From: Acidocella sp.
GTDB taxonomy: Bacteria; Pseudomonadota; Alphaproteobacteria; Acetobacterales; Acetobacteraceae
Length of the DNA: 38,871 bases
NCBI RefSeq assembly: GCF_027352905.1
Contig: NZ_DAIEIF010000052.1
Location: forward strand, 1-38,871
Reading direction: 5' to 3'
How positions within the stretch are numbered: position 1 is the stretch's first letter; every line of letters begins with the position of its first letter. Below are positions 3 through 19,843 of the stretch, piece by piece. The notes under the pieces are model-generated. The model had not been told where the DNA came from. It was given only the letters and a program-made list of their open reading frames with translations, and did not search any database. The position numbers were made by a program, and so were the translations under genes.

Positions 3-1169
3 GCGGGCGCGGCGGCCCGCGCCGCCACCTCGCCCCAGCCGGCCGAGGAGATGGTCGATCTCGCGAGATCCTACCCGTTTTATGGCGCGGGCGAGCAGGC
101 GGGCATCCGCACTCCGCCGCAACGCCATGTGTTCTTCATGAGTTTCGACCTCACCACCGCGCGGCGCGAGGATTTGCGCATGCTGCTGGCGCTGTGGTCG
201 GGCGCCATCGCCCAGATGGTGCAGGGCCGGACCATCGGCCAGGTGGAGCCCGCCGGGCCGAACGGGGTGGGAATGGATACCGGTGAGGCGCTGGAGATCG
301 GCCCCGCCGCGCTGACGGTGACGGTGGGGCTCGGCCCGCGCGTATTCGGCGATGAATTTGGCCTGGCGGCGCAAAAACCCGCCCGGCTGCGCCCTCTCGT
401 GCAACTGCCGAGCGACGCTTTCGACCCAAGCCTGACGGGGGGTGATCTCTCCCTGCAAGCCTGCGCCGATGATCCGCAAGTCGCCTATCACGCGGTGCGC
501 GATCTGGCCCGGCTCGCCCGGAGCACGGGCGCGGCCAGTACGCGCTGGGCCGTTCTCGGGTTCGGCCGCGCCTCCGCCGGCCCCGCCCAGACCACACCGC
601 GCAATCTTCTCGGCTTCAAGGACGGCACCCGCAACATCCAATCCGATGAGGATTATGAGCGGTTCGTCTGGGTTGCAGACGGCCCGGCCTGGCAGCGCCG
701 CGGCACGTATCAGGTGGTGCGCAAGATCAGCATGAATCTGGAAAATTGGGATACCAACCGTGTCGGCAACCAGAACCGCGTCTTCGGGCGGCATAAGCTC
801 TCCGGCGCGCCGCTCAGCGGGACGCGGGAATTCGACACGCCGGATTTCACCAGGCTGGGCGCGGATGGCAAGCCCATGATCCCGCTCAATGCCCATATCG
901 CCCTCGCCGCGCATGAGAATAATGGCGGGCTGAAAATTCTCCGGCGCTCCTATAATTACACGGATGGGATCGGCCCGTATGGCCAGCTGAGCGCCGGGCT
1001 GTTGTTCATTTCCTACCAGAACGATCCCGCCCATTTCGAGGCGTTGCAGACGAAGCTGGGCGCCGCCGACGCGCTCAATGAATATATCTCCCATATCGGC
1101 TCGGCGGTCTTCTTCGTCCCGCCCGCTCCCGCCGAGGGGCATCACATCGCCCAGGAGATGTTCACATGA
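3..1169 (+). CDS. efeB: Dyp-type haem peroxidase, EfeB/deferrochelatase family (5' end cut off)
   Basis: Haem-dependent dye-decolorising peroxidase of the EfeB type, which in EfeUOB systems acts in the periplasm in iron acquisition. The frame is open from base 3, and the alanine-rich residues before the first ATG (51) read like the end of an export signal, so the true start and Tat signal lie upstream. Visible family marks are YPFYG…QAGI…TP near the start, the Dyp GxxDG motif in GFKDGTRN near base 612, a histidine-bearing stretch LNAHIALAAH near 886–915, where the proximal haem ligand is expected, and ILRRSYNYTDG near 937–967. The efeO and efeU partners are not in the window and would be expected upstream. 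The family call is firm; haem-iron release versus general peroxidase activity cannot be told from sequence. Confidence 0.9.
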   Translation, partial: AGAAARAATSPQPAEEMVDLARSYPFYGAGEQAGIRTPPQRHVFFMSFDLTTARREDLRMLLALWSGAIAQMVQGRTIGQVEPAGPNGVGMDTGEALEIGPAALTVTVGLGPRVFGDEFGLAAQKPARLRPLVQLPSDAFDPSLTGGDLSLQACADDPQVAYHAVRDLARLARSTGAASTRWAVLGFGRASAGPAQTTPRNLLGFKDGTRNIQSDEDYERFVWVADGPAWQRRGTYQVVRKISMNLENWDTNRVGNQNRVFGRHKLSGAPLSGTREFDTPDFTRLGADGKPMIPLNAHIALAAHENNGGLKILRRSYNYTDGIGPYGQLSAGLLFISYQNDPAHFEALQTKLGAADALNEYISHIGSAVFFVPPAPAEGHHIAQEMFT

Positions 1170-1257
1170 TCCGGCCGGTTCGGCATTGCCGCTCTTCGGT
1201 TTTTCGATATTACCGCGCTCTCTCTTCCGGCTAGCATCCCTCCACGGAGGAATGCCC

Positions 1258-2880
1258 ATGGACATCATAAACCCGGTGCCCGACGGTTCTGCCGCGACGC
1301 TGGCGGCGCTGCTCGACCGGCAGGCCGCGGCGGCGCCGGAGGCCATCGCCTTTATCGACCGGGACCGCCCGCTGCGCTATGGCCCGCTGGCGCGGGAGAG
1401 CGCCGGCCTCGCCGCCGGTTTGGCGCGGCTGGGCGTGGGGGCGGGGGACCGGGTCGCGGTTTGGCTGCCAAATATCCCGGCCTGGTTCGCGGGTTTTTTT
1501 GCCTGCGCGCGGCTGGGGGCCATCGCCGTCGCGGTCAATACCCGCTTCAAGAGCGGCGAGGTCGCCGATATCGTCCAGCGCTCGGGGGCCAAGATCCTCA
1601 TCTATTGGCCGGGATTCAAGGGGATTGATTTCAACGGCATCATTGGCGGCGTTCCCGCCGAGGCCCTCGCCGCCGTCAGCGGCCTCGTGCTGTATCATGA
1701 AAACGAAGCGGCCCTGCCCGCGCGGGTGCATGGGGTGGAGGCGCATGACTACCACGCTCTCGCGGCCACGCCGCCCATGCCGGGCGATGAAGGCGGCCCC
1801 GAGGCTGGATGCGTGATCTTTACCACCTCCGGCACCACCCGCGCGCCGAAATTCGTTCTCCATCCCCAGCGCTCCATTCTCGCCCACGCCGCCGATGTGG
1901 CGGCCGCCCTTGCCCTCAATGCGCAGGATGCGGTGATGATGCCCGCCGTGCCCTTTTGCGGCGTTACCGGCTTCTGCCAGGCCATGGCGGCGCTCGCGGC
2001 GGGAAGGCCGGTCATCGGCACGCCCGCCTTCGAGCCGGGGGAGGCGGCGGGGCAGATCCGCCGCCACGCCGTTACCCACACCGCCATGTTGGGCGAGATG
2101 GCCGCCAACCTCATCGCCGCCGCCCCGCCCGGCCCGCGCCCCTTCCCCAGCCTGCGGCTGGTTGGCTTCGCCGCCTTCTCTCCCACGCAGTTGAACGTGG
2201 TACCCGAGGCCGAGGCGCTGGGGATTCCGCTGGTCGGGCTCTATGGCTCTTCCGAGGTGCAGGCCTTGTTCTCCCGCCAGCCCTTCCATCTGCCCGCGCT
2301 GGAGCGGGCGCAAGGCGGGGGGATACCGATGTCTCCCCAGGCGCGGGTGCGGGTCCGCGACGCCGAGACCGGGGAGTTGCTGCCGCCGGAGTGCTCCGGT
2401 GAGCTTGAATTCGCCGGGCCGAGCCGGATGATGGAATATTTCAACAATCCCGAGGCGACGCGCGCGGCTTTGACCGAGGACGGATATTTCCGCTCCGGCG
2501 ATCTCGGCTACCTCACCGGGGATGGCCGCTTCGTGTATCAGAGCCGGATGGGCGACGCGCTCCGTCTCGCCGGGTTTCTCGTCAGCCCGGTCGAGATCGA
2601 GGCCTTCATCAAGGAACACCCCGCCATCGCCGATGCGCAGGTGGTGGGGGTTGAGATCGCCGGCTCACCGCGAGCGGTGGCGTTTGTCATCATCGTTGAT
2701 GGGTCGGAATGGAGTGAGGAGGTTTTGATCGCCCATTGCCGCGCGCGAATGGCGAATTACAAGGTGCCGGCGCGGATCCTGGCGATCGAAGAATTTCCCG
2801 TGACACCATCCGCCAATGGCAACAAGATTCAAAAAGCGCGCCTGCGCGGAATGGCGCAGGCGGCGCTTGAGGCCGTGTAA
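1258..2880 (+). CDS. AMP-dependent acyl-CoA ligase (FadD/CaiC-like)
   Basis: ANL-superfamily ligase, predicted to activate a carboxylic acid to its CoA thioester through an acyl-adenylate; substrate unknown. The frame opens at 1078, but a GGAGG at 1246–1250 sits 7 bases before the ATG at 1258, which starts MDIINPVPDG and gives 540 residues; ATG 1252 is only 1 base from the SD. The phosphate loop near residues 189–198 reads TTSGTTRAPK, with Arg where most relatives have Gly. GLYGSSEVQ replaces the usual YGxTE motif. The hinge region FRSGDLGYL and the C-terminal lysine region (NKIQKARLR) are present. It follows efeB by 88 bases and converges on the rhodanese gene. It could feed the oxygenase/acyl-CoA cluster downstream, but nothing in the sequence ties it to that pathway. 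Confidence 0.85.
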   Translation: MDIINPVPDGSAATLAALLDRQAAAAPEAIAFIDRDRPLRYGPLARESAGLAAGLARLGVGAGDRVAVWLPNIPAWFAGFFACARLGAIAVAVNTRFKSGEVADIVQRSGAKILIYWPGFKGIDFNGIIGGVPAEALAAVSGLVLYHENEAALPARVHGVEAHDYHALAATPPMPGDEGGPEAGCVIFTTSGTTRAPKFVLHPQRSILAHAADVAAALALNAQDAVMMPAVPFCGVTGFCQAMAALAAGRPVIGTPAFEPGEAAGQIRRHAVTHTAMLGEMAANLIAAAPPGPRPFPSLRLVGFAAFSPTQLNVVPEAEALGIPLVGLYGSSEVQALFSRQPFHLPALERAQGGGIPMSPQARVRVRDAETGELLPPECSGELEFAGPSRMMEYFNNPEATRAALTEDGYFRSGDLGYLTGDGRFVYQSRMGDALRLAGFLVSPVEIEAFIKEHPAIADAQVVGVEIAGSPRAVAFVIIVDGSEWSEEVLIAHCRARMANYKVPARILAIEEFPVTPSANGNKIQKARLRGMAQAALEAV

Positions 2881-3729: not shown

Positions 3730-5376
3730 ATGGACAATAACGTGATAATGGAAACTGGCGCGGCGCCCTCCGTGCAAACCACAGACGTCGACGTGCTGGT
3801 GGTGGGGGCGGGGTTTGCCGGGCTGTATCAGCTCCATAAGCTGCGGCAGGCCGGATTCAGGGTCAAGGTGATCGAGGCTGGATCCGATATTGGCGGAATT
3901 TGGCATTGGAATCGCTATCCGGGAGCGCGGGTAGATTCCCATGGCGCTATGTACCAATACTCAGATCCGGACCTATGGAAGGATTGGGCCTATAAGGAGC
4001 TTTATCCCGGCTGGGAGGAGTTGAGGGCCTATTTCGATCACGTCGATGCCAAGTGGGATTTGCGCAAGGACGTGGTTTTGAGCACGCGTGTGACAGGGGC
4101 GGATTTTGATGAATCCACGCGCAAATGGACGGTGCATACCGATAAGGGCGGGGATTACGTCGCCCGGTCTTTCGTGCTGTGCACCGGCTTCGCCTCCAAG
4201 CCCTATATACCGGAATTCGAGGGAATGAAGGATTTCAAGGGCGAGATTCATCACACCGGCCTCTGGCCTCAGCAGGGGGTGGACATGCGTGGCAAGCGGG
4301 TCGCGGTGATCGGCATGGGCGCCAGCGGCGTGCAAGTGATGCAGGAAGCCGGCGCGGAGGCGAAGCGCGTCACGCATTTTCTCCGCACCCCTTGCCTCGC
4401 GATTCCCATGTGGCAGCGCCAGATGACGGAGGTGGATAACGAGGAGATGCGCAAGCATCTGCCGGAAGACATGATGAAGCGCAAGCAGACCTTTGGCGGC
4501 TTCAATTACGATTTTCAGGATGTCGGTGTTTACGAGGTCGATGACGCCAAGCGCGAGGAGATGTTCGAGAGCATCTGGAAGGCCGGCGGCTTCTGGTGGT
4601 GGCTCAATAATTTCAATGACGTTTTGTTCGACGAGAGATCAAACCGCGCCCAATATGATTTTTGGCGGAAGAAAGTGCTGGCGCGGATCAAGGATCCTCG
4701 CCTGGCCGAGATCTACGCGCCCGAGCAGCCGCCGCATCCGTACGGGGTCAAGCGCCCCTCTCTCGAGCAGAATTTCTACGAGGTCGTCCAGCAGGACAAT
4801 GTGGACGTCGTGGATTTGAAGCAGGAGCCGATCGTCAGATTTACGGAAAAGGGAATCCAGACGACGAAGGGCGAGTACGAATTCGACATCATTGTGCTGG
4901 CCACGGGGTTCGACGCGGTTTCGGGCGGGTTGACCCAGCTTGATATCCGGGGGACGGCGGGCCGTACCCTGGGCGAGAAATGGCGGGATGGCGTGCGTAC
5001 CCATCTTGGCATGGCCAGCCGGGAGTTTCCCAACCTCTATTTCATTTATGGCCCCCAGAGCCCAAGTGGTTTTTGCAACGGCCCCACCGCCGCCGAGGCG
5101 CAGGGTGACGAGCTAGTGAAACTTCTCGTGAAATTCAGGGATGCGGGCATCACCAGGGTAGAGGCCAAGGCGGATGCCGAGGAAGCCTGGCGGAACCATT
5201 GCAAGATGGTGGCGGATATGACCCTTTTTCCCAAGGCTGATTCCTGGTACATGGGCGCTAATATTCCAGGCAAGCCGCGGGAATTGCTGATGTATCCCTC
5301 CGGGCTGCCCGCGTATCTGCAAGCCTGTGAAGACTCGATATCGAAACATTTCGCCGGTTTCGAGGTCTCGCGCTGA
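3730..5376 (+). CDS. Flavin monooxygenase, type I Baeyer–Villiger family
   Basis: FAD- and NADPH-dependent monooxygenase of 548 residues, predicted to insert one oxygen of O2 next to a ketone carbonyl, giving an ester or lactone. Two Rossmann motifs are visible: G26-A-G28-F-A-G31 for FAD and G195-M-G197-A-S-G200 for NADPH. The family fingerprint FxGxxxHxxxWP is matched exactly at residues 169–180 (FKGEIHHTGLWP). The second signature, GGxWxxxxYPGxxxD, is at 55–69 (GGIWHWNRYPGARVD). The length is normal for the cyclohexanone/phenylacetone monooxygenase group. It is the first gene of a forward run with an SDR, a GrdB-like protein and a CoA-transferase, and it has a strong ribosome site at 3715–3722. 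The ketone substrate cannot be read from the sequence; oxidation of other heteroatoms is possible. Confidence 0.92.
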   Translation: MDNNVIMETGAAPSVQTTDVDVLVVGAGFAGLYQLHKLRQAGFRVKVIEAGSDIGGIWHWNRYPGARVDSHGAMYQYSDPDLWKDWAYKELYPGWEELRAYFDHVDAKWDLRKDVVLSTRVTGADFDESTRKWTVHTDKGGDYVARSFVLCTGFASKPYIPEFEGMKDFKGEIHHTGLWPQQGVDMRGKRVAVIGMGASGVQVMQEAGAEAKRVTHFLRTPCLAIPMWQRQMTEVDNEEMRKHLPEDMMKRKQTFGGFNYDFQDVGVYEVDDAKREEMFESIWKAGGFWWWLNNFNDVLFDERSNRAQYDFWRKKVLARIKDPRLAEIYAPEQPPHPYGVKRPSLEQNFYEVVQQDNVDVVDLKQEPIVRFTEKGIQTTKGEYEFDIIVLATGFDAVSGGLTQLDIRGTAGRTLGEKWRDGVRTHLGMASREFPNLYFIYGPQSPSGFCNGPTAAEAQGDELVKLLVKFRDAGITRVEAKADAEEAWRNHCKMVADMTLFPKADSWYMGANIPGKPRELLMYPSGLPAYLQACEDSISKHFAGFEVSR

Positions 5377-5428
5377 AAAACCCGGGCCGCCTACGCATAA
5401 TAAAACCATGTCTTGATAGGAGTCTGCC

Positions 5429-6199
5429 ATGCAGCTGAAGAATAAGCTCGCCGCCATCACCGCCGCCGGGTCCGGCATGGGCCGCGCCGCCGTGAAATTA
5501 TTTTCGCAGGAGGGCGCGCGTGTCGCCGCCATCGACCTCAACGCAGAGGCTCTCGCCTCGCTCAAGGCGGAAATGAAGGCGGCCGGCTTCGACATCGTTA
5601 CGATCACGGCCGATCTCTCCACCGAGGCGGGCGCGCGCGACAGCCTCAACCAGGCGGCGGATGCGCTGGGCGGGCTCGATATTCTCTGGGCCCATGCGGG
5701 GGTTCCCGGCCCGGCCGGGATCGAGGGCGTGGATATGCAGGCCTTTCACAAATCCATGGCGATCAATGTCGACGCGGCGGTGATCGGCGCGGGCGAGGCG
5801 GTGCGCTATATGCGCAAGCGCGGCGGCGGCTCCATCATCTTCACGGCCTCCATCTCGGGTCTCGTCGGCTCGATGTTCAGCCCGCTTTATTCCGTCGCCA
5901 AATTCGGGATCGTCGGCCTCACGAAATCCCTGTGCCAGACCTTCGCGCCGGATAATGTGCGGGTCAACGCGATCTGTCCCGGCCTGACCGACACGCCGAT
6001 GTGCGACCAGTTCATGAGCCGCAAGGGTGACCCGGAGGAGGCGGCCCGCAACCGGGAGATGATGATCAACAGCCTTCCGCTCAAACGGCTCGGCCGGCCC
6101 GAGGACATGGCCCAGGCGGCGCTTTGGCTGGCCTCTGACGCCTCGTCCTACGTGACAGGCGTCGCGCTGGCCGTGGATGGCGGTTTCACGGCGAAATAG
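5429..6199 (+). CDS. SDR-family oxidoreductase
   Basis: Classical short-chain dehydrogenase/reductase of 256 residues, expected to interconvert an alcohol and a ketone with NAD(P)(H). The cofactor loop is TAAGSGMG at 11–18, slightly off the usual TGxxxGxG. The catalytic set is Ser141, Tyr154 and Lys158 (YSVAK), and the C-terminus has the VTGVALAVDGG pattern. Asp36 at the end of strand β2 (AAIDLN) favours NAD over NADP. A ribosome site (TAGGAG) lies just before the ATG, and only 52 bases separate it from the monooxygenase, so the two are likely co-transcribed. A natural role would be to oxidise a secondary alcohol to the ketone used by the monooxygenase; this is inference. Confidence 0.88.
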   Translation: MQLKNKLAAITAAGSGMGRAAVKLFSQEGARVAAIDLNAEALASLKAEMKAAGFDIVTITADLSTEAGARDSLNQAADALGGLDILWAHAGVPGPAGIEGVDMQAFHKSMAINVDAAVIGAGEAVRYMRKRGGGSIIFTASISGLVGSMFSPLYSVAKFGIVGLTKSLCQTFAPDNVRVNAICPGLTDTPMCDQFMSRKGDPEEAARNREMMINSLPLKRLGRPEDMAQAALWLASDASSYVTGVALAVDGGFTAK

Positions 6200-6270
6200 A
6201 CCAAACCGGGGGCGAGGCGGCTTGCAAACCCCTCGCCGCCGCGACCCTTATGCCGAGCAAGGTGTTACCG

Positions 6271-7212
6271 ATGCAGCCGCCATTTCACTTCGCCCCGGAA
6301 TATGACCAGCCCGTGCGCTACATGCAGCGCACCCGTGAATGGTATCTCGCGCTGGGCTACGACAACCCCTATGAATGGGCGCATTTTCTCGATGTGCCTT
6401 TTCAGCCGCTGAAAAAACCTCTCGCCGCCTCGCGGGTCGCCATTCTAACGACGGCGGCGCCTTTCCAGCCGGATAAGGGGCCGCAAGGCCCGGGCGCTCC
6501 CTATAACGGCGCCGCGAAATTTTACGAGGTCTATTCCGGCGATACCGATCAGGAGCATGATCTGCGGATCGCTCATGTGGGCATCGATCGCATCCATACC
6601 AGCATGGAGGACAGCCATTGCTGGTTTCCCCTGGCCGCGCTGCGCCGCGCGGCGGCGGCGGGGCGCATCGGCTCCATCGCGCCGCGATTCCACGGCGTGC
6701 CGACCAACCGCAGCCAGCGGCATACGCTGGAGGTGGATGGCCCCGAGCTGCTCCGGCGCTGCCTCGAGGACGAGGCGGACATCGCCCTGCTGGTGCCGAA
6801 TTGCCCGATCTGCCACCAAACGATGAGCCTCGTGGCGCGTGAGCTGGAACGTAACGGCATCGCCACCGTTATCATGGGCTGCGCCAAGGACATCGTGGAA
6901 TATTGCGGCGTGCCGCGGTTTCTGTTCAGTGATTTTCCTTTGGGCAATGGCGCCGCCCGCCCGCATGACACCGCCTCGCAGGACCAAACCCTGGCTTTGG
7001 CCCTCGCCCTGGCACAGGCCGCGCCCGCGCCGCGCACCACCGTGCAAAACCCGTTGCGCTGGAGCGCGGATGCGAGCTGGAAGCTCGACTACTGCAATGT
7101 GGAGCGCGTGGCGCCGGAGGAACTCGCCCGGCTGCGCGCCGAGACCGATCGCGAAAAGGAAAAGGCGCGTCTCATTCGCGAGGCCGCTTATGCCAAGGCG
7201 CAACTCCCATGA
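6271..7212 (+). CDS. GrdB-like protein (glycine/sarcosine/betaine reductase B family) without selenocysteine
   Basis: Protein of 313 residues (320 if the ATG at 6250 is used; AAGGTG at 6257–6262 favours 6271). Its core resembles selenoprotein B of the anaerobic glycine/betaine reductases: RIHTSMEDSHCWFPLAALR, RIGSIAPRFHGVPT, and a CxxC in VPNCPICHQTM with cysteines at 178 and 181. GrdB has a UxxCxxC motif; here the matching stretch is VPNCPIC, so the selenocysteine position appears to be Val. It is shorter than GrdB, and no other reductase subunit is nearby. Its stop overlaps the CoA-transferase start by 4 bases, so the two proteins are probably made together. Its biochemical role is unknown; a thiol-based role with the CoA-transferase substrate is a guess. 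Confidence 0.72.
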   Translation: MQPPFHFAPEYDQPVRYMQRTREWYLALGYDNPYEWAHFLDVPFQPLKKPLAASRVAILTTAAPFQPDKGPQGPGAPYNGAAKFYEVYSGDTDQEHDLRIAHVGIDRIHTSMEDSHCWFPLAALRRAAAAGRIGSIAPRFHGVPTNRSQRHTLEVDGPELLRRCLEDEADIALLVPNCPICHQTMSLVARELERNGIATVIMGCAKDIVEYCGVPRFLFSDFPLGNGAARPHDTASQDQTLALALALAQAAPAPRTTVQNPLRWSADASWKLDYCNVERVAPEELARLRAETDREKEKARLIREAAYAKAQLP

Positions 7213-8402
7213 CCGGCCCTTACGACGATCTGCGGATTCTCGATTTCACCCGCTATTATGCGGGTCCATTTGGAACTTACCAGTTCGCGTTGCAGGGCGC
7301 GGACGTCATCAAGATCGAGCCGCCAGGCGGGGAGGAATACCGTGAGGCGCAGCTCGACCCGGTATGGGCGCAACGCAAACTGGCCCCGGCCTATATGTCG
7401 GTCAATGCCAATAAGCGCAGCATTATCCTCGATCTGCGGACGGACGAGGCCCAGGACATCGTGAGGCGGCTGGTGAAATCCGCGGACATCGTGTGGGAGA
7501 ATTTTCGCCCCGGCGTCATGGACCGTTTCGGTCTGGGCTATGAGGCGCTGCGGCAGATCAACCCCCGCTTGATCTATTGCGCGGTCTCGGGGTTCGGCCA
7601 GACCGGCCCGGCCGCCCACCAGGCCGCCTTCGACGGCAAGATCCAGGCGATGTCAGGCATCATGGCGATGACTGGCGACGCTGCGGGCGGGCCGACGCGG
7701 GCGGGTTTCGCGGTTTGTGACCTAATCGCCGGAATGACGGCCGCCTTCGCGGTCTCCACGGCGCTGCACCACCGGCAGCGCACGGGGCAGGGACAGATGG
7801 TCGATGTGGCGCTGCTGGACGCGACGCTGAACTTCCTCACCCAGCATGTCACGGAATACACCGTGTCCGGGCATGTCCAGCAGCAATACGGCAATCTTTC
7901 AGTGACCCGCAAACCAACCGCTGACAGGTTCCGCTGCGGTGAGGGCTATGTGGTTCTGGCGGCTCTCACCGAGCGGCAGTTTCAAGCCTTGATGAAGACG
8001 CTCGGCCGGCCGGAGGCGCTCGATGACCCGCGTTTCGCGGATTGGCCGAAGCGGATGGAAAACACCGCCGAATTGCGCCGGATCATCGAGGAGGCGATGG
8101 CGACGGGCGACCCCCTCACTTGGGAGGCGCGGTTGACGGCGGCGGACGTGCCCTGCTCGCGCATCATGTCGGTCGACGAGATCGTCGCGCATCCGCAAGT
8201 GACGCACCGCCAGCTTTTGCATACCGTTGATTCGGAGTACGGACCGCTGAGACTTGTCGGCTCCGGTTTCAAGCTCGAGCATGGCGGTGGCGAGGTCACC
8301 CGGGCTCCGGCGAGCCCCGGCGCGCATACGGCGGAAATTCTCGCGGAGGCCGGGTACACGAGGGCGGAAATCGACGCGTTTCTTGGCCAGCTGGCCGGTT
8401 GA
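7209..8402 (+). CDS. Family III CoA-transferase (CaiB/BaiF type)
   Basis: CoA-transferase of 397 residues that should move CoA from an acyl-CoA donor to a free acid through a covalent aspartyl intermediate. The start is ILDFTRYYAGPF, followed by DVIKIEPPGGEEYR, NKRSIILDL, ADIVWENFRPGVMDRFGLGYE and NPRLIYCAVSGFGQTGP, all family hallmarks. The catalytic residue is probably Asp142 in AAFDGKIQAMSGIMAMTG. The length is normal for the family. It starts inside the stop of the GrdB-like gene (ATGA, 7209–7212) and ends 4 bases before the convergent kinase gene. The acid it activates is unknown; a hydroxy acid derived from the monooxygenase product would fit the neighbours. Confidence 0.92.
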   Translation: MTGPYDDLRILDFTRYYAGPFGTYQFALQGADVIKIEPPGGEEYREAQLDPVWAQRKLAPAYMSVNANKRSIILDLRTDEAQDIVRRLVKSADIVWENFRPGVMDRFGLGYEALRQINPRLIYCAVSGFGQTGPAAHQAAFDGKIQAMSGIMAMTGDAAGGPTRAGFAVCDLIAGMTAAFAVSTALHHRQRTGQGQMVDVALLDATLNFLTQHVTEYTVSGHVQQQYGNLSVTRKPTADRFRCGEGYVVLAALTERQFQALMKTLGRPEALDDPRFADWPKRMENTAELRRIIEEAMATGDPLTWEARLTAADVPCSRIMSVDEIVAHPQVTHRQLLHTVDSEYGPLRLVGSGFKLEHGGGEVTRAPASPGAHTAEILAEAGYTRAEIDAFLGQLAG

Positions 8403-8406
8403 GAGC

Positions 8407-9468
8407 CTACCCGCCGGCGCTGACCACCCGCCAGCCCAGCGCGGAGGCGAGCTTGGCCCGCTCATGCATGCGGTGCGCATTCGCGTCGGCCGCGTTGCCG
8501 GCGAGCGCGCGGGCATAAACGCCCTCGACGATCGCCGCCGAGCGGAACATGGAAAACCCAAGGAAGAATGTCCAATCCGGGATATCGGCGCGGCCCGTGC
8601 GCGCGCAATAGAGGGCCAGCACCTCCGCCTCGCTCATCAGCCCCTGGGCGCCGAGATCGACGCCGATATATCCCTCCTGGGCGGGGCCGGTCCCTGGCGG
8701 CATGTGATAGGCCATGCAGCAATAGGCGAGGTCGGCCAGCGGATGGCCGAGGGTGGAAAGCTCCCAGTCCAGCACGGCGATGACCCGCGGCTCGGCCGGG
8801 TGGATCATGGCATTGCCGAGGCGGAAATCTCCATGGGCGATCGCGGTTTCGTCATGCGCGGGCCGGTTCTCCCGCAGCCAGGCGATCAGCCGGTCCATAT
8901 CCGGCAGATCCTCGCTCTTCGAGGCCTCGTATTGTTTCGTCCAGCGCTCGATCTGCCGCGCGACATAGGCTTCCGGGCGGCCGAAATCCGCAAGGCCGAT
9001 GGCTTTGTAGTCAACCGAATGCAGCGCGGCGATCGTCTCGATCAGCGAGCGCTGGATGGCGCCGCGCTCGGCGGGGGCAAGCCCGGGGGCAAGGAGGTTC
9101 TGGAGCACGCGCCCATCGAGATACTCCATCACGTAGAATTCGGTGCCGATGACGGCGGGGTCGGCGCAATAATGATACATGCGCGCCACCGGCACGCCCG
9201 TTCCCCAAAGCGCCTGCTGGATGCGGTATTCACGGTCGATCTGATGAGCGGAGGGCAATAATTTGCCGGGCGGCTTCTTGCGCAGCACATAGGCGCGGGC
9301 GGGCGTCTCGATGAGAAAGGTGGGGTTGGACTGGCCACCCTGGAATTGCCGCAGGCGCGCGGGCCCGGCGAAGCCCTCGACGTGGCGGGCGAGATGCTCG
9401 AAGAGCGGCTCGGGGTCGAACCGGTGCGCGGGCAGCGGCTCGACGAGAACGGGTTTGGTCTCGCTCAT
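8407..9468 (-). CDS. APH-type phosphotransferase, ACAD10/11 kinase-domain / LvaA-like
   Basis: Aminoglycoside-phosphotransferase-fold kinase of 353 residues. From memory it closely resembles the N-terminal kinase half of ACAD10/11: GGQSNPTFLIE, YVLRKKPPGKLLPSAHQIDR, VIGTEFYVMEYLDGR, the Brenner motif HGDFRLGN (His212–Asn219) and VLDWELSTLGHPLADLAY. In that family the kinase phosphorylates the hydroxyl of 4-hydroxyacyl-CoA; aminoglycosides are not the expected substrate. The chosen ATG (9468) begins MSETKPVLVEP; the frame runs on to 9813 without homology. It follows the SDR gene by 7 bases, so the pair is co-transcribed, and the matching acyl-CoA dehydrogenase is divergent at 10366. A separate LvaB-like small partner is not seen. 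Confidence 0.88.
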   Translation of the reverse strand: MSETKPVLVEPLPAHRFDPEPLFEHLARHVEGFAGPARLRQFQGGQSNPTFLIETPARAYVLRKKPPGKLLPSAHQIDREYRIQQALWGTGVPVARMYHYCADPAVIGTEFYVMEYLDGRVLQNLLAPGLAPAERGAIQRSLIETIAALHSVDYKAIGLADFGRPEAYVARQIERWTKQYEASKSEDLPDMDRLIAWLRENRPAHDETAIAHGDFRLGNAMIHPAEPRVIAVLDWELSTLGHPLADLAYCCMAYHMPPGTGPAQEGYIGVDLGAQGLMSEAEVLALYCARTGRADIPDWTFFLGFSMFRSAAIVEGVYARALAGNAADANAHRMHERAKLASALGWRVVSAGG

Positions 9469-9475
9469 CGCATCG

Positions 9476-10252
9476 TCACGCGAAATGGCTGGTGACGACC
9501 GCGCCGCCATCCACCACGATGGTCTGACCGGTGATGTATCTGGCCGCGTCGCTGGCGAGAAACGCGCCGACCCCGCCGATATCCTCGGGCTCGCCGATCC
9601 GCCCGAGCGGGGTTGATTGCTGGATGTTGCGCTCCTTCTCCGGGTCGTCCCATAGCGCGCGGGCGAAATCCGTGCGGATGACACCGGGCAGGATGGCGTT
9701 GACCCTGATCTGCTTCGGCCCCCATTCCACGGCGAGATTCTGCACGAGTCCGATCTCGGCGAGTTTGGAGATATTATAGGCCGGAATGGCGAGATTGCCG
9801 CGCAGCGCGCCAATGGAGGAAATGGCGGTGAAGCTGCCGCCCCCCTGTTTGGCGATCTCTGGCAGCGCCATATTGGCGAGCCAGAGCGTGGAGCGGAGAT
9901 TGGTGCCCATGATTTTGTCCCAGGCGCTGTCTGGCACGGTGGAAAGCGGGCCGTAATGGGGATTCACGGCGACGTTGGCGACAACATGGTCGAGCCGGCC
10001 ATAGGTTCGCAGCGTGAAGTCCAGCAGGGCTTCCAGCGCTTCCTTCGTTCCCGTGTTGCAGGCAGTGGCCGCCGCCTTTCCCCCCCGCTCGGTGATTTTT
10101 TTCGTCACTTCCTGGCAGGCATCGAGTTTGCGCGAGGAAATCACGACGGCGGCCCCGAGTCCGGCCATCGTTTCGGCGATGGCGCGGCCGATGCCGCGCG
10201 AGGAACCCGTGACGATGGCGACCTTGCCATCCAGCCGGAATAGATGATCCAT
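9476..10252 (-). CDS. SDR-family oxidoreductase
   Basis: Classical SDR of 258 residues with the full motif set: cofactor loop TGSSRGIG (15–22), VANVAVNP in place of the NNAG strand, catalytic Ser146, Tyr159 and Lys163 (YNISK), and the terminal [12 protein letters not shown]. Arg41 after the β2 strand (SSRK) suggests NADP could be accepted. GGAG is spaced 8 bases from the ATG at 10252. It heads a two-gene reverse operon with the ACAD10/11-type kinase. In 4-oxo/4-hydroxyacid pathways an SDR can reduce the keto group or act on the 3-hydroxyacyl product; either role fits and neither is proven here. Confidence 0.88.
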
Positions 10253-10365
10253 TGGGCGTTCTCCTTTGGGCGGGGATGGTTCTCCGCAGAGACCAGGAAG
10301 TCAAGCTTGCATCCCGGCGCGGGGGCGTTACCATCTTCGCGAGAACAAACCCTCGAGGAACCAGC
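10253..10365. promoter_or_regulatory. Divergent promoter region, SDR–kinase operon versus acyl-CoA dehydrogenase
   Basis: These 113 bases separate the reverse SDR start (10252) from the forward acyl-CoA dehydrogenase start (10366), so both promoters must lie here and may be co-regulated. GAGGA at 10355–10359 is the ribosome site of the dehydrogenase. An imperfect inverted pair GGTTCT…AGAGACC occurs near 10284–10302 but is too poor to call an operator. No regulator gene lies next to it. Confidence 0.4.
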
Positions 10366-11655
10366 ATGCCCATCACCTATTCGCCCAAAGTGGAGGCGCT
10401 GCGCGCACGCCTTGCCGATTTCATGGCCGAGCACATCTACCCCGCCGAGGAGGCTCTCTTCGCCGAGACGGCGCTCGCCACCGGGGAGGATCGCTGGAAG
10501 CCGCACGCGAGGCTGGAGGAGATCAAGCAGAAGGCCCGCGCGGCGGGGCTATGGAATCTTTTTCTTCCCGACAGCGAGTATGGCTATGGCCTTTCCAATG
10601 AGGAATACGCGCCTCTGGCCGAGATCATGGGGCGCTCGCCCTTCGCGCCGGAGGCCTTCAACTGTTCCGCCCCGGATACGGGGAATATGGAGGTGCTGGT
10701 CCGCTATGGCACGGCGGAACAGAAGGAGCGCTGGCTCAAGCCGCTTCTCGCCGGCGAGATACGCTCCGCCTTCGCGATGACCGAGCCGAACGTGGCCTCC
10801 TCCGACGCGACGAACGTGACCACGGAAATCCGCCGCGAGGGCGGTGAATACGTCATCAACGGCCATAAATGGTGGATTTCCGGCGCGCCCGATCCGCGCT
10901 GCCGCATCCTCATCGTCATGGGCAAGAGCGATCCGGCAAATCCCGACCGTTACAAGCAGCAGAGCATGATCCTCGTGCCGCTTCCCCATCCCGGCGTCAC
11001 CATCAAGCGGGCCTTGCCGGTCTTTGGTCATGACGACGCGCCGCATGGCCATGCCGAGCTGATCTTCAAGGATGTGCGGGTGCCCGCCGCGAATATTCTG
11101 CTGGGGGAGGGCAGGGGGTTCGAGATCGCCCAGGGCCGGCTCGGCCCGGGGCGCATCCATCATTGCATGCGCTCAATCGGCTGCGCGGAGCGGGCGCTGG
11201 AGCGGATGATGCGCCGCCTGCAAAGCCGGGTCGCCTTCGGCAAGCCGGTGGCCGAGCAGAGCGTCTGGCGCGAGCGCATCGCCGAAAGCCGCTGCATGAT
11301 CGATCAGGCCCGGCTGCTTTGCCTGCAGGCGGCGCGGCTGATGGACACGCAAGGCAACAAGGCGGCGCGCACGGAAATCTCGATGATCAAGATCGTCGCC
11401 CCCAACATGGCCTGCAAGGTCATAGACTGGGCGATCCAGGCCTTTGGCGGCGGCGGCGTCGCGGATACCTGGTTGACCATGGCCTATACGCTCCAGCGCA
11501 CCCTCCGCTTCGCCGACGGGCCGGACGAGGTGCATCGCGACCAGCTCGCCCGCACCGAGCTGAAGCGCCTCGACAATACCGACCCGGCGCGCACCGGCGC
11601 CTGGCCGCAGGTCATCGTGGCAGATGGGGTGAGCGCGCCCGGCCTGCCGGCCTAG
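10366..11655 (+). CDS. Acyl-CoA dehydrogenase, ACAD10/11 / LvaC-like
   Basis: Flavin-dependent acyl-CoA dehydrogenase-fold enzyme of 429 residues. The middle domain shows [15 protein letters not shown] and [13 protein letters not shown]. The C-terminal domain ends with [20 protein letters not shown]; the glutamate in DGPDEVH, about residue 388, sits where the usual catalytic base lies. The DGPDEVH wording is typical, from memory, of ACAD11 and LvaC rather than of ordinary fatty acyl-CoA dehydrogenases. ACAD11-type enzymes remove phosphate from a 4-phosphoacyl-CoA and yield an enoyl-CoA. The ATG at 10366 has GAGGA 6 bases upstream; the open frame reaches back to 10252 without homology. The partner kinase is encoded divergently at 8407–9468. 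Ordinary α,β-dehydrogenation is the alternative. Confidence 0.88.
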
Positions 11656-11681: not shown

Positions 11682-12521
11682 TTATTCCGCGGGCGAGGCG
11701 GCGCCGTTGGAGCCAAGGGCGCGCCTCTCCTGCTCCGCCCGCACCCGCGCCGGCAGGAAGGGGTGGATGAGAAGCTGGTAGGCGCCGCCGCCGATCACGC
11801 CGCCGATCAACGGCGCCGCGATCGGGATCCACCAGAAATTATCCGGCGAGGGCAGGGCCGAATGTCCCCAGCCGGCGAAATAGGCGAAGAGGCGGGGGCC
11901 GAAATCGCGCGCCGGGTTCAGCGCCCAGGCTTCCAGATACCCCATCGAGGCGCCGATGGCGGCGACGAGAAAGCCGATGATGAGCGCGCCGGAATTCGCT
12001 TGCGGCGCCATCTCGTTATATTGCTCGGTGATCGCGAATATGCCGAATAACAGGATGGCGGTGAGGATGATCTCATCGGAGAAGGCGTGCATGGGCGAGA
12101 TCGCGAGGCCGGGATGGGTGAAGAACACGCCCGCCGCGCCGCCCGCCGCCCGGGTGAGATGGTTGACCTGGTTGAAGTGATCGATGACGGGCTGGAACAG
12201 CACATAAACGATCACCGCGCCGAGAAAGGCGCCCACGATCTGCGCGAACCAGTAAGGCGCCACCTTGCGCCAGGGAAAGCCCCGGAACACCGCCAGGGCC
12301 AAGGTCACGGCCGGGTTGGCGTGGGTGCCGGAAACCGAGCCGGTGACATAGATCGCGATGGTGACCGAAAGCCCCCAGGCGATGCAGACCCCCCAATAGG
12401 CGTTCACATACGGGCTTGGGTCATACAGCACATACATGCAGGCCACGGAATCGCCAAAGGCGATGATGATGAATATCGCGACGGCTTCCGAGATCAGCTC
12501 GCCGAATAATTGCCGGTTCAT
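11682..12521 (-). CDS. glpF: Glycerol facilitator (aquaglyceroporin)
   Basis: Inner-membrane MIP-family channel of 279 residues for glycerol uptake. Both NPA boxes are intact: Asn69-Pro-Ala (THANPAVT) and Asn202-Pro-Ala-Arg-Asp (LNPARDFGPR). The aspartate after the second NPA-Arg is the classical mark of glycerol rather than water channels. Six hydrophobic helices plus two half-helices can be traced. GGGAG lies before the ATG at 12521; the upstream 41 codons of open frame are unrelated. It is the last gene of glpD-glpK-glpF, 32 bases behind glpK, so glycerol entering the cell is trapped by the kinase. The C-terminal tail (AEQERRALGSNGAASPAE) is cytoplasmic and not conserved. Confidence 0.93.
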   Translation of the reverse strand: MNRQLFGELISEAVAIFIIIAFGDSVACMYVLYDPSPYVNAYWGVCIAWGLSVTIAIYVTGSVSGTHANPAVTLALAVFRGFPWRKVAPYWFAQIVGAFLGAVIVYVLFQPVIDHFNQVNHLTRAAGGAAGVFFTHPGLAISPMHAFSDEIILTAILLFGIFAITEQYNEMAPQANSGALIIGFLVAAIGASMGYLEAWALNPARDFGPRLFAYFAGWGHSALPSPDNFWWIPIAAPLIGGVIGGGAYQLLIHPFLPARVRAEQERRALGSNGAASPAE

Positions 12522-12553
12522 GTCGTTTCTCCCTCGTCTTTGATTTGGTTGCC

Positions 12554-14053
<1,500 letters not shown>

Positions 14054-18089: not shown

Positions 18090-18107
18090 AGCGTCTCTCC
18101 ATATCTG

Positions 18108-18133
18108 TGGTTCGTTGGAACCATGTTATGGTT
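18108..18133. promoter_or_regulatory. Two overlapping inverted repeats between gabD and acyl-CoA ligase
   Basis: TGGTTC-GTTG-GAACCA (18108–18123) overlaps AACCAT-GTT-ATGGTT (18119–18133). Three TGGTT/AACCA half-sites therefore alternate in orientation, and the two direct copies are 21 bases apart. They sit 19 bases upstream of the gabD start in the 119-base divergent gap. The symmetry and helical spacing suggest an operator for a dimeric repressor acting on both genes; the protein that binds it is not identified. Confidence 0.55.
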
Positions 18134-18208
18134 TGGATTATCCAGCGCCTCCCGCGCCCGTCAAGAATGGCCGGGGCGAGGGCGGCCGCGGTGATGGGAG
18201 GAGAAAGC

Positions 18209-19843
18209 ATGCTGGGCCGAATGATGTTCATGCCGCTGACGATCCAGTCGCTGATCGACCATGCGGCGCGCTACCACCACGAAACGGAGATCGTCTCGGT
18301 CGAGACCGACGGGGCCAAGACCCGCACCAACTGGCGCAACGTCGCGGCGCGGGCGCGCCGGCTCAACGACGCGCTGCGGCGGCGCGGCCTGGCGAAGGGG
18401 GATCGCTGCGGGACGATCGCCTGGAACAATGCGCGTCATCTCGAATGCTATTTCGGCATTTCCGGCGCGGGAATGATCTGCCACACCATCAACCCGCGCC
18501 TGTTTCCCGAGCAGCTGGCCTATATCATCAACCATGCCGGAGACCGCGTGATCTTTTGCGACAAGACCTTTCTGCCGGTTCTCGCCGGCTTGCGCGGCAG
18601 GCTGCCCGGGGTGGAGGCGTTCATCCTGCTCTCCGGCCCGGATGAGGAGGCGGCGCGGACCCTGCCGGGGCTGCTGTTCTATGAGGAGTTCATCGCCGCC
18701 GGCGCGGCGGACGCGCCCTGGGCGGAGGTGGAGGAGACGGATGGCTCCAGCCTTTGCTACACCTCCGGCACCACGGGCAATCCCAAGGGGGTCCTTTATA
18801 CCCATCGCTCGACGGTGCTTCACTCCCTCGTCGCCGCCACCCCGGACGTGCTCAGCATCTCGGCCCGCGACATGGTGCTGCCCGTGGTGCCGATGTTTCA
18901 CGTCAATGCCTGGGGCACGCCCTACGCCGCCGCCCTGGCCGGGGCCAGCCTCGCCTTGCCCGGCCCGTTTCTCGACGGCGAGAGCCTGGCGCGGCTGATC
19001 GAGGCGGAGGGGGTGAATGTCGCGCTCGGCGTGCCCACCATCTGGCAGGCGCTGTTGCGGGCGCTGGACGCCTCCGGCGCCAAAACCACCCCGCTCAAGC
19101 GCACCGTGGTCGGCGGCGCCGCCTGCCCGCCCGCGCTCATCGCCGCCTTCCGGGACAAATACGGGGTCGAGGTCGTCCATGCCTGGGGCATGACCGAGAC
19201 CTCGCCGCTCGGCACGGTCAACAATCTGCTGCGCCGCCATGGCGGCTTGCTGGAAATCGAGCAGGCGCGGCTGCGCGAGAGCCAGGGCCGTCCGCCTTAC
19301 GGGGTGGAGCTCAAGATCGTGGACGATCAGGGCCACCCATTGCCGGAAGATGGCAAGGCCCAGGGCAATCTGCGCATTCGCGGCCATTGGGTCGTCGCCG
19401 ATTATTTCGGCGCCGGGCCGGGCGAGACGCTGGCCGAGGATGGCTGGTTCGAGACCGGAGACGTCGCCTCCATCAGCGAGGATGGGTTCATGACCATCCG
19501 CGACCGCGCCAAGGACATCATCAAATCAGGCGGGGAGTGGATCTCGACGATCGAGCTGGAGGGCATCGCCCTCAGCCACCCGGATATCGATGACGCCGCC
19601 GCCATCGCCGCCCGCCATCCGAAATGGGACGAACGGCCGGTGCTGCTCGCCGTGCCCCGGCCGGGCGCCTCCATCACCGAGGCGGGGTTGCTCGATTACT
19701 TCAAGGACAAGGTGGCGAAATGGCAGATCCCGGATAAGGTGATCTTCGTGCCCAGCCTGCCGCGCAACAATAGCGGCAAGCTGATCAAGACGGCTCTGCG
19801 CCAGGAATATGGCAATGTGCTGAGCGAGGCGGCGGAAGGCTGA
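18209..19843 (+). CDS. AMP-dependent fatty acyl-CoA ligase
   Basis: Acyl-CoA ligase of 544 residues, probably for medium- or long-chain acids. The phosphate loop YTSGTTGNPKGVLYTHRS starts near residue 184. It also has MFHVNAWGTPY, HAWGMTETSPLGT, WFETGDVASISEDGFMTIRDRAKDIIKSGGEWISTIELE and the C-terminal catalytic lysine region NNSGKLIKTALR. GGGAGGAG at 18196–18203 lies 5 bases before the ATG at 18209 and decides the start; the frame runs open to 18107 without homology. It is divergent from gabD with a possible shared operator. It resembles the third ligase at 26197–27882 in its C-terminal domain, but the two are clearly different proteins. Confidence 0.92.
   Translation: MLGRMMFMPLTIQSLIDHAARYHHETEIVSVETDGAKTRTNWRNVAARARRLNDALRRRGLAKGDRCGTIAWNNARHLECYFGISGAGMICHTINPRLFPEQLAYIINHAGDRVIFCDKTFLPVLAGLRGRLPGVEAFILLSGPDEEAARTLPGLLFYEEFIAAGAADAPWAEVEETDGSSLCYTSGTTGNPKGVLYTHRSTVLHSLVAATPDVLSISARDMVLPVVPMFHVNAWGTPYAAALAGASLALPGPFLDGESLARLIEAEGVNVALGVPTIWQALLRALDASGAKTTPLKRTVVGGAACPPALIAAFRDKYGVEVVHAWGMTETSPLGTVNNLLRRHGGLLEIEQARLRESQGRPPYGVELKIVDDQGHPLPEDGKAQGNLRIRGHWVVADYFGAGPGETLAEDGWFETGDVASISEDGFMTIRDRAKDIIKSGGEWISTIELEGIALSHPDIDDAAAIAARHPKWDERPVLLAVPRPGASITEAGLLDYFKDKVAKWQIPDKVIFVPSLPRNNSGKLIKTALRQEYGNVLSEAAEG

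Follow-up and report, generated by a model that had tools for sequence, protein, structure and literature searches.

A putative split ACAD10/11-type 4-hydroxyacyl-CoA kinase and dehydrogenase pair in an Acidocella contig

The contig NZ_DAIEIF010000052.1 of Acidocella sp. (assembly GCF_027352905.1), analysed here over its positions 1 to 38,871 (hereafter the window), carries at positions 8407-11655 the genes for a kinase, a short-chain dehydrogenase/reductase (SDR) and a divergently oriented acyl-coenzyme A (CoA) dehydrogenase. Very probably, the kinase and the dehydrogenase constitute a split bacterial form of the mammalian ACAD10/11 proteins, in which the kinase would phosphorylate the 4-hydroxyl of an acyl-CoA and the dehydrogenase would eliminate the phosphate to yield a 2-enoyl-CoA. 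The genes, their homology, their residues, their tree positions and their co-occurrence were observed, and the reaction is predicted from homology to ACAD10/11 and to a bacterial pair that was assayed without LvaB, the 12-kDa protein that binds LvaA in the Pseudomonas levulinate (lva) pathway (PMC6692424).

In the proposed route, the SDR would make or unmake a 4-oxo group on the acyl-CoA, whereupon the kinase would transfer a phosphate from adenosine triphosphate (ATP) to the 4-hydroxyl, giving a 4-phosphoacyl-CoA. The dehydrogenase-fold enzyme would then remove this phosphate while holding flavin adenine dinucleotide (FAD) with no net oxidation, in line with published work in which FAD is needed but not consumed in the conversion of 4-phosphoacyl-CoA into 2-enoyl-CoA and phosphate (PMC12440821; PMC11342911). 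The resulting 2-enoyl-CoA could enter beta-oxidation, for which the genome of the window holds 19 enoyl-CoA hydratase-family and 30 dehydrogenase-family matches.

Homology, residues and tree positions of the pair

In phmmer searches against the PDB, both proteins matched mouse ACAD11 far beyond chance (E 3e-94 for the kinase and 1.6e-130 for the dehydrogenase), which confirms that the gene set noticed in the first-pass annotation of the window is real. All four kinase stretches quoted there, as well as the DGPDEVH ending of the dehydrogenase, were found in the window translations. The Pfam assignments of the three proteins are aminoglycoside phosphotransferase (APH), SDR and acyl-CoA dehydrogenase, with the kinase clearly belonging to the APH fold family (PF01636, E 1.4e-57). 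The best PDB match of the kinase is 3dxp (E 1.9e-113), which is named a putative acyl-CoA dehydrogenase in the database but is a kinase by alignment, while 9o56 follows mouse ACAD11 at 7.9e-53. The identity of the kinase amounts to 54% with 3dxp and 49% with the corresponding half of mouse ACAD11, and it is the only copy of its kind in its own genome.

For the dehydrogenase, the best match was 4hr3 (E 4.4e-133; PDB name putative acyl-CoA dehydrogenase), with the ACAD11 domain 2wbi at 8.1e-128 and FadE3 as the best ordinary dehydrogenase among the PDB matches at 6e-40. Its identity is 54% to the mouse ACAD11 half and 34% to FadE3. Published modelling of ACAD11 has R626, H634 and R637 holding the 4-phosphate, together with R631 and the catalytic D753, and changes at these residues lower activity (PMC12440821). 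Equivalents of all five are present in the window dehydrogenase, and the complete five-residue signature is shared by 159 of the 190 dehydrogenase rows that were fetched, with repeats counted. Among the 12 dehydrogenases of the same genome that best match the presumed LvaC introduced below, the window dehydrogenase alone carries all five. The kinase likewise possesses R79, E80, R171, D214, N219 and D234, whereby D214 and N219 correspond to mouse D220 and N225, and D234 is the aspartate of the DWE motif (mouse D240 by our own count).

For all comparisons with the lva pathway, the locus L220 (genome G391) served as the reference; it was picked by gene order, and the named P. putida lva genes are not among the loci. 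At L220, a regulator gene with PrpR_N and sigma-54 domains diverges from a row of five genes encoding a kinase of 352 amino acids (aa), a DUF6285 protein of 118 aa, a dehydrogenase of 390 aa, an SDR of 255 aa and a synthetase of 564 aa. Since this is the lvaR/ABCDE order, the DUF6285 protein was taken as the presumed LvaB and the dehydrogenase as the presumed LvaC. Identity to the proteins of this operon is 27% for the window kinase and 38% for the window dehydrogenase.

The same division appeared in two trees, both built by a quick method without bootstrap. In the kinase tree (85 rows), the window kinase, mouse ACAD11 and 3dxp lie within one 58-row set (support 98), and 16 kinases linked to DUF6285 are grouped on the opposite side (support 92); the exact sister of the mouse kinase is unsure because of its long end branch. 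This tree samples 82 of 209 distinct kinases, namely all 8 members of the window's clade, a hand-made selection, 35 random picks, 16 of 31 LvaA-type kinases and 3 weak ones, plus 3 PDB sequences. In the dehydrogenase tree (72 rows), the window and mouse ACAD11 share one 45-row set (support 99), 15 ordinary dehydrogenases are separate (support 99, with a program warning of long branches among them), the lva-ordered dehydrogenase (L103, the same place as L220) forms another branch with seven congeneric sequences, and three rows make up a third branch. For this tree, 35 rows were drawn at random from 132 high-scoring ones; to these were added the full set of 12 signature rows with low scores, 14 out of 29 ordinary rows, 8 members of the window's clade and 3 sequences from the PDB. 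The first-pass annotation had named a position among ordinary fatty acyl-CoA dehydrogenases as one outcome that would speak against it. No such outcome was seen, as both proteins group with ACAD11 and are separated from ordinary dehydrogenases and from LvaA-type kinases.

The automatic names of the two proteins would allow a simpler account, in which an ordinary fatty acyl-CoA dehydrogenase lies by chance beside an unrelated APH-family kinase for an antibiotic or another small molecule. The NCBIfam matches are weak and generic, with APH_3p for the kinase (36.9 bits, cut-off 205) and acryloyl-CoA reductase for the dehydrogenase (155 bits, cut-off 640). However, the PDB comparison, the trees, the signature residues and the co-occurrence reported below all speak against chance neighbours, making this account extremely improbable.

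The features of the region are collected in Table 1. The SDR gene lies 7 bases upstream of the kinase gene on the same strand, and since the dehydrogenase starts with the ATG at 10366(+), the SDR-kinase unit and the dehydrogenase diverge across 113 bases. An alignment of six congeneric regions revealed no clear shared operator in this gap. A longer frame for the kinase (468 aa, TTG 9813) was rejected, as its start falls inside the SDR gene. An open reading frame (ORF) on the opposite strand (11682-12644) comes after the dehydrogenase.

Table 1. Features of the kinase, SDR and dehydrogenase region of the window
Feature	Positions	Strand	Basis
Predicted ACAD10/11-type 4-hydroxyacyl-CoA kinase, APH fold, 353 aa	8407..9468	-	ATG 9468; PF01636, PDB matches, tree, residues
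Kinase catalytic D214 (mouse D220) to N219 (mouse N225), in HGDFRLGN motif	8812..8829	-	Alignment
Kinase R171 (mouse ACAD11 R176)	8956..8958	-	Alignment columns; role from modelling in PMC12440821
SDR family reductase, 258 aa, same direction as kinase	9476..10252	-	PF13561, E 6.2e-63
Divergent intergenic region, 113 bases, between SDR-kinase and dehydrogenase	10253..10365	.	
ACAD11/LvaC-type acyl-CoA dehydrogenase, 429 aa, predicted 4-phosphoacyl-CoA phosphate eliminase	10366..11655	+	ATG 10366; PDB, tree, signature residues
Dehydrogenase segment with equivalents of mouse R626, R631, H634, R637	11137..11172	+	Alignment; roles from PMC12440821
Dehydrogenase D384 (catalytic D753), in DGPDEVH	11515..11517	+	Alignment

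Distribution and gene order

The spread of both genes was surveyed in 397 Pseudomonadota genomes, including that of the window, with thresholds of E ≤1e-100 for the dehydrogenase and E ≤1e-30 for the kinase. The dehydrogenase was detected in 157 genomes, the kinase in 159 and both in 157; because at most four dehydrogenase and five kinase candidates per genome were scored, absences are less sure than presences. In counts that ignore kinship, every one of the 157 dehydrogenase-bearing genomes thus also has the kinase, compared with 2 of the 240 others, and in these two genomes a more distant signature dehydrogenase lies beside the kinase (L215, L216). Within the genus, among the 37 genomes covered by both searches, the same 16 have a strong kinase match (E ≤3.2e-76) and a dehydrogenase match (best E ≤2.2e-52), and five others hold only weak kinase-like matches (about 1e-14 to 1e-18).

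Gene order was then compared over 175 distinct kinases of the window's type, identical kinases being counted once and the window included. The 100 survey loci had been hand-picked for spread among the matches listed, and the row counts of the fetched set leave out 39 loci, of which 31 repeat included places and eight are short (L052, L063-L066, L069, L071 and L076). A signature dehydrogenase lies within 5 kb of 104 of these kinases (84 on the same strand, 12 divergent and 8 convergent), which is a lower bound since the lengths of the stretches vary. No single frame with both kinase and dehydrogenase was found in the loci examined. The exact arrangement of the window, an SDR-kinase unit with a divergent dehydrogenase, occurs for 6 of the 175 kinases, all in this genus. 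The SDR-kinase unit is kept in six congeners, and in five of these the divergent dehydrogenase is kept as well; in the congener L035, kinase and dehydrogenase are 8.5 kb apart.

Several points weigh against the assignment as an ACAD10/11-type pair and have to be set beside this evidence. The substrate class is assigned by homology only, the co-occurrence may partly reflect shared descent and draws on at most four dehydrogenase or five kinase candidates of each genome, and 71 of the 175 distinct kinases lack a signature dehydrogenase within 5 kb, although many of these stretches are short. Furthermore, the L220 dehydrogenase is only 39% identical to mouse ACAD11, whereas identities of 62% to ACAD10 and 56% to ACAD11 have been published for LvaC (PMC11342911). 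This mismatch suggests either that L220 may not be a true lva orthologue or that the published figures were computed otherwise. If L220 is not a true lva operon, this would weaken the conclusions on LvaB as well as the separation of the window pair from the lva type, but not the ACAD10/11 assignment itself.

Some loci show additional genes. In Acidiphilium rubrum, a zinc-type alcohol dehydrogenase-like gene and an SDR gene come after the dehydrogenase (L222:2716-4559(-)), and in Stutzerimonas zhaodongensis, the kinase and synthetase genes are separated by one of the SurE family (L232:7026-7865(+)). A histidine phosphatase gene is described in the P. citronellolis cluster (PMC6692424).

The LvaB partner and two kinase arginines

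The first-pass annotation had described the window as a split ACAD10/11-type pair lacking a visible LvaB partner, and had suggested a search of the genome for a homologue. No match to DUF6285, the presumed LvaB, was detected in this genome, which is 99% complete, and together with the identities, trees and residues this upholds the description. What did not stand is the idea that the LvaB-less form might be a new, simpler version. DUF6285 matches were found in 45 of the 397 genomes and in 37 of the 157 with the dehydrogenase, leaving the form without DUF6285 as the commoner one (120 of 157). Moreover, kinase and dehydrogenase orthologues of another bacterium have replaced the ACAD10 parts in vitro (PMC11342911), a paper whose main text does not contain the word LvaB, so the LvaB-less reaction was already known. 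In P. citronellolis LA18T, no lvaB was reported in the region analysed (PMC6692424). In the literature searched, which leaves most subscription papers outside, we found no paper naming DUF6285 and no titles on bacterial ACAD10/11 operons.

At the level of gene neighbourhoods, DUF6285 lies within 600 bases of none of 187 rows with an ACAD11-type kinase (repeats included). As a possible neighbour of ACAD11-type dehydrogenases it was also rejected, since none of 107 stretches gave a match (the window, 100 loci of the survey and 6 from congeners). Seven congeneric loci (L013, L015, L018, L020, L023, L027 and L046) show a mixed pairing, in which the kinase is of the ACAD11 type and the dehydrogenase belongs to the presumed LvaC branch, and no DUF6285 was found within the stretches examined there. 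The DUF6285-linked kinases themselves amount to 33 rows (31 distinct; L077-L106), whose linkage is partly there by construction, since the set was mostly drawn from the DUF6285 search. In 28 of these rows the short stretch holds no full-length dehydrogenase match, three have a dehydrogenase lacking the signature, and two (one place, L103/L220) have one with it; partial dehydrogenase matches lie beside a few more. The DUF6285-linked kinases may serve another pathway. Two single frames, L101:382-1812(+) and L106:1438-2871(-), combine an LvaA-type kinase with DUF6285 and are apparent natural fusions; alongside the gene order at L220, they form the basis for equating DUF6285 with LvaB.

The two groups of kinases also differ at two arginines, whose ACAD11 counterparts are CoA contacts in published modelling (PMC12440821). 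R79, beside the αC glutamate, and R171, equivalent to R176, are both present in all 175 kinases of the window's type, whereas among the 31 distinct DUF6285-linked kinases the αC-adjacent arginine occurs once and the R176 equivalent never. The arginine scored here is that of D-R-E, next to the glutamate; R86 of the published model falls two places away. Given that these arginines are invariant in one kind and nearly absent in the other, LvaB may replace them. It is therefore tempting, albeit rather doubtful, to distinguish an ACAD11 kind of kinase, which would act partner-free through two built-in arginines, from an LvaA kind, which would rely on LvaB (DUF6285) for CoA and is sometimes fused to it. 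The main weakness of this proposal is the alignment at about 27% identity, even though the catalytic residues align in both groups. If true, it would give a function to LvaB, a small protein without an assigned role, and predict which bacteria need it; the split in arginines thus offers a simple test of LvaB's role.

Candidate substrates and known systems

The SDR is a candidate 4-oxoacyl-CoA reductase like LvaD. Its best PDB match is DHRS4 (E 3.3e-59), it is 37% identical to the SDR of the lva-ordered operon, and an SDR of this sort lies within 1.5 kb of 45 of the 175 distinct ACAD11-type kinases, window included. In the first-pass annotation, the pairing with an SDR had been cited in favour of a simpler bacterial form, as though it departed from the lva scheme. 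This cannot be maintained, because LvaD, which makes 4-hydroxyvaleryl-CoA, is a reductase and itself an SDR (PMC6692424), and because an SDR adjoins so many of these kinases. The natural substrate may be levulinate, or a product of the monooxygenase cluster next to the pair, or some other 4-hydroxy acid.

Since the SDR, kinase and dehydrogenase match LvaD, LvaA and LvaC in kind, and acyl-CoA synthetase genes are present within the window (1078-2880 and 18107-19843), the region could encode a true levulinate pathway, in which the SDR reduces levulinyl-CoA, and kinase and dehydrogenase convert 4-hydroxyvaleryl-CoA. However, kinase and dehydrogenase fall in the ACAD11 branches rather than with the lva-ordered operon, no LvaB match was found, and the synthetases lie 5.5 kb and 6.5 kb away, respectively, with several ORFs between. 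A levulinate pathway is hence unlikely.

On the plus strand at 3730-8402, a flavin monooxygenase (taken as Baeyer-Villiger type), an SDR, a PrdB-like protein without a Pfam match and a CaiB-family CoA-transferase are encoded in a row that stops 4 bases short of the kinase gene's end. Such adjacency, together with plausible chemistry, would fit a scheme in which a ketone is ring-opened to a hydroxy acid, the transferase forms the CoA ester of this acid and the pair removes the hydroxyl. In contrast to this scheme, cluster and kinase are convergent and do not form one operon, the PrdB-like gene occurs in 1 of 38 congeneric genomes compared with 16 for the pair, and the cluster does not appear in two sets of 12 and 94 loci, apart from one CaiB-like gene in L296, at 4.7 kb from the kinase. 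That the pair serves this cluster is thus very unlikely.

A less remote alternative is that the same chemistry acts on the 4-hydroxyl of a complex CoA ester, such as a terpenoid or steroid side chain or another one, rather than on a straight fatty acid. Many kinase-like places lie in some catabolically rich replicons, for example 10 on one Novosphingobium plasmid (E ≤1e-5), and the substrate cavity of ACAD11 has been described as broad (PMC12440821). Nevertheless, nothing in the window gives direct evidence for a complex substrate, and we consider this a minor but genuine possibility beside the ACAD10/11-type reaction on a 4-hydroxy fatty acid.

Related bacteria often carry this type of arrangement, whose chemistry has been described before; a two-gene ACAD10/11 reaction without a recognisable LvaB would be common in the sampled Pseudomonadota. 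Database names such as aminoglycoside phosphotransferase and putative acyl-CoA dehydrogenase appear to conceal a defined catabolic step for 4-hydroxy acids, and the residue signatures permit a better annotation.

In mammals, the fused halves of ACAD11 remove the hydroxyl of 4-hydroxy fatty acids (PMC12440821, PMC11342911). Both halves of ACAD11/ACAD10 (PDB 8v3u, 8v3v) are homologous to the window pair and share its catalytic and phosphate-binding residues. While the mammalian proteins are single fused polypeptides (ACAD10 with an extra HAD domain, later cleaved), kinase and dehydrogenase of the window are separate proteins encoded on opposite strands, with an SDR in addition. The assayed bacterial pair of PMC11342911 (UniProt Q63VL0, kinase; Q63VL1, dehydrogenase) by its description likewise consists of separate enzymes; the same paper gives identities of up to 51% and 38% between bacterial kinases and those of ACAD10 and ACAD11, respectively.

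The Pseudomonas lva operon (LvaA-LvaB-LvaC-LvaD-LvaE; PMC6692424) shares with the window a kinase, a dehydrogenase of the same signature and an SDR. In contrast, the window has no LvaB match, no linked synthetase corresponding to LvaE and another gene order, and its proteins are not of the LvaA/LvaC type by identities and trees, provided that L220 is a true lva operon. The same three genes, as judged by score, are found as ACAD-SDR-kinase operons in Stutzerimonas, Marinobacter, Alloalcanivorax, Caldovatus, Acidisphaera and Pseudoroseomonas (L232, L229, L233, L248, L261 and L271). In these six operons, no DUF6285 was found within the loci and all genes lie on one strand, whereas in the window and five congeners the dehydrogenase is reversed.

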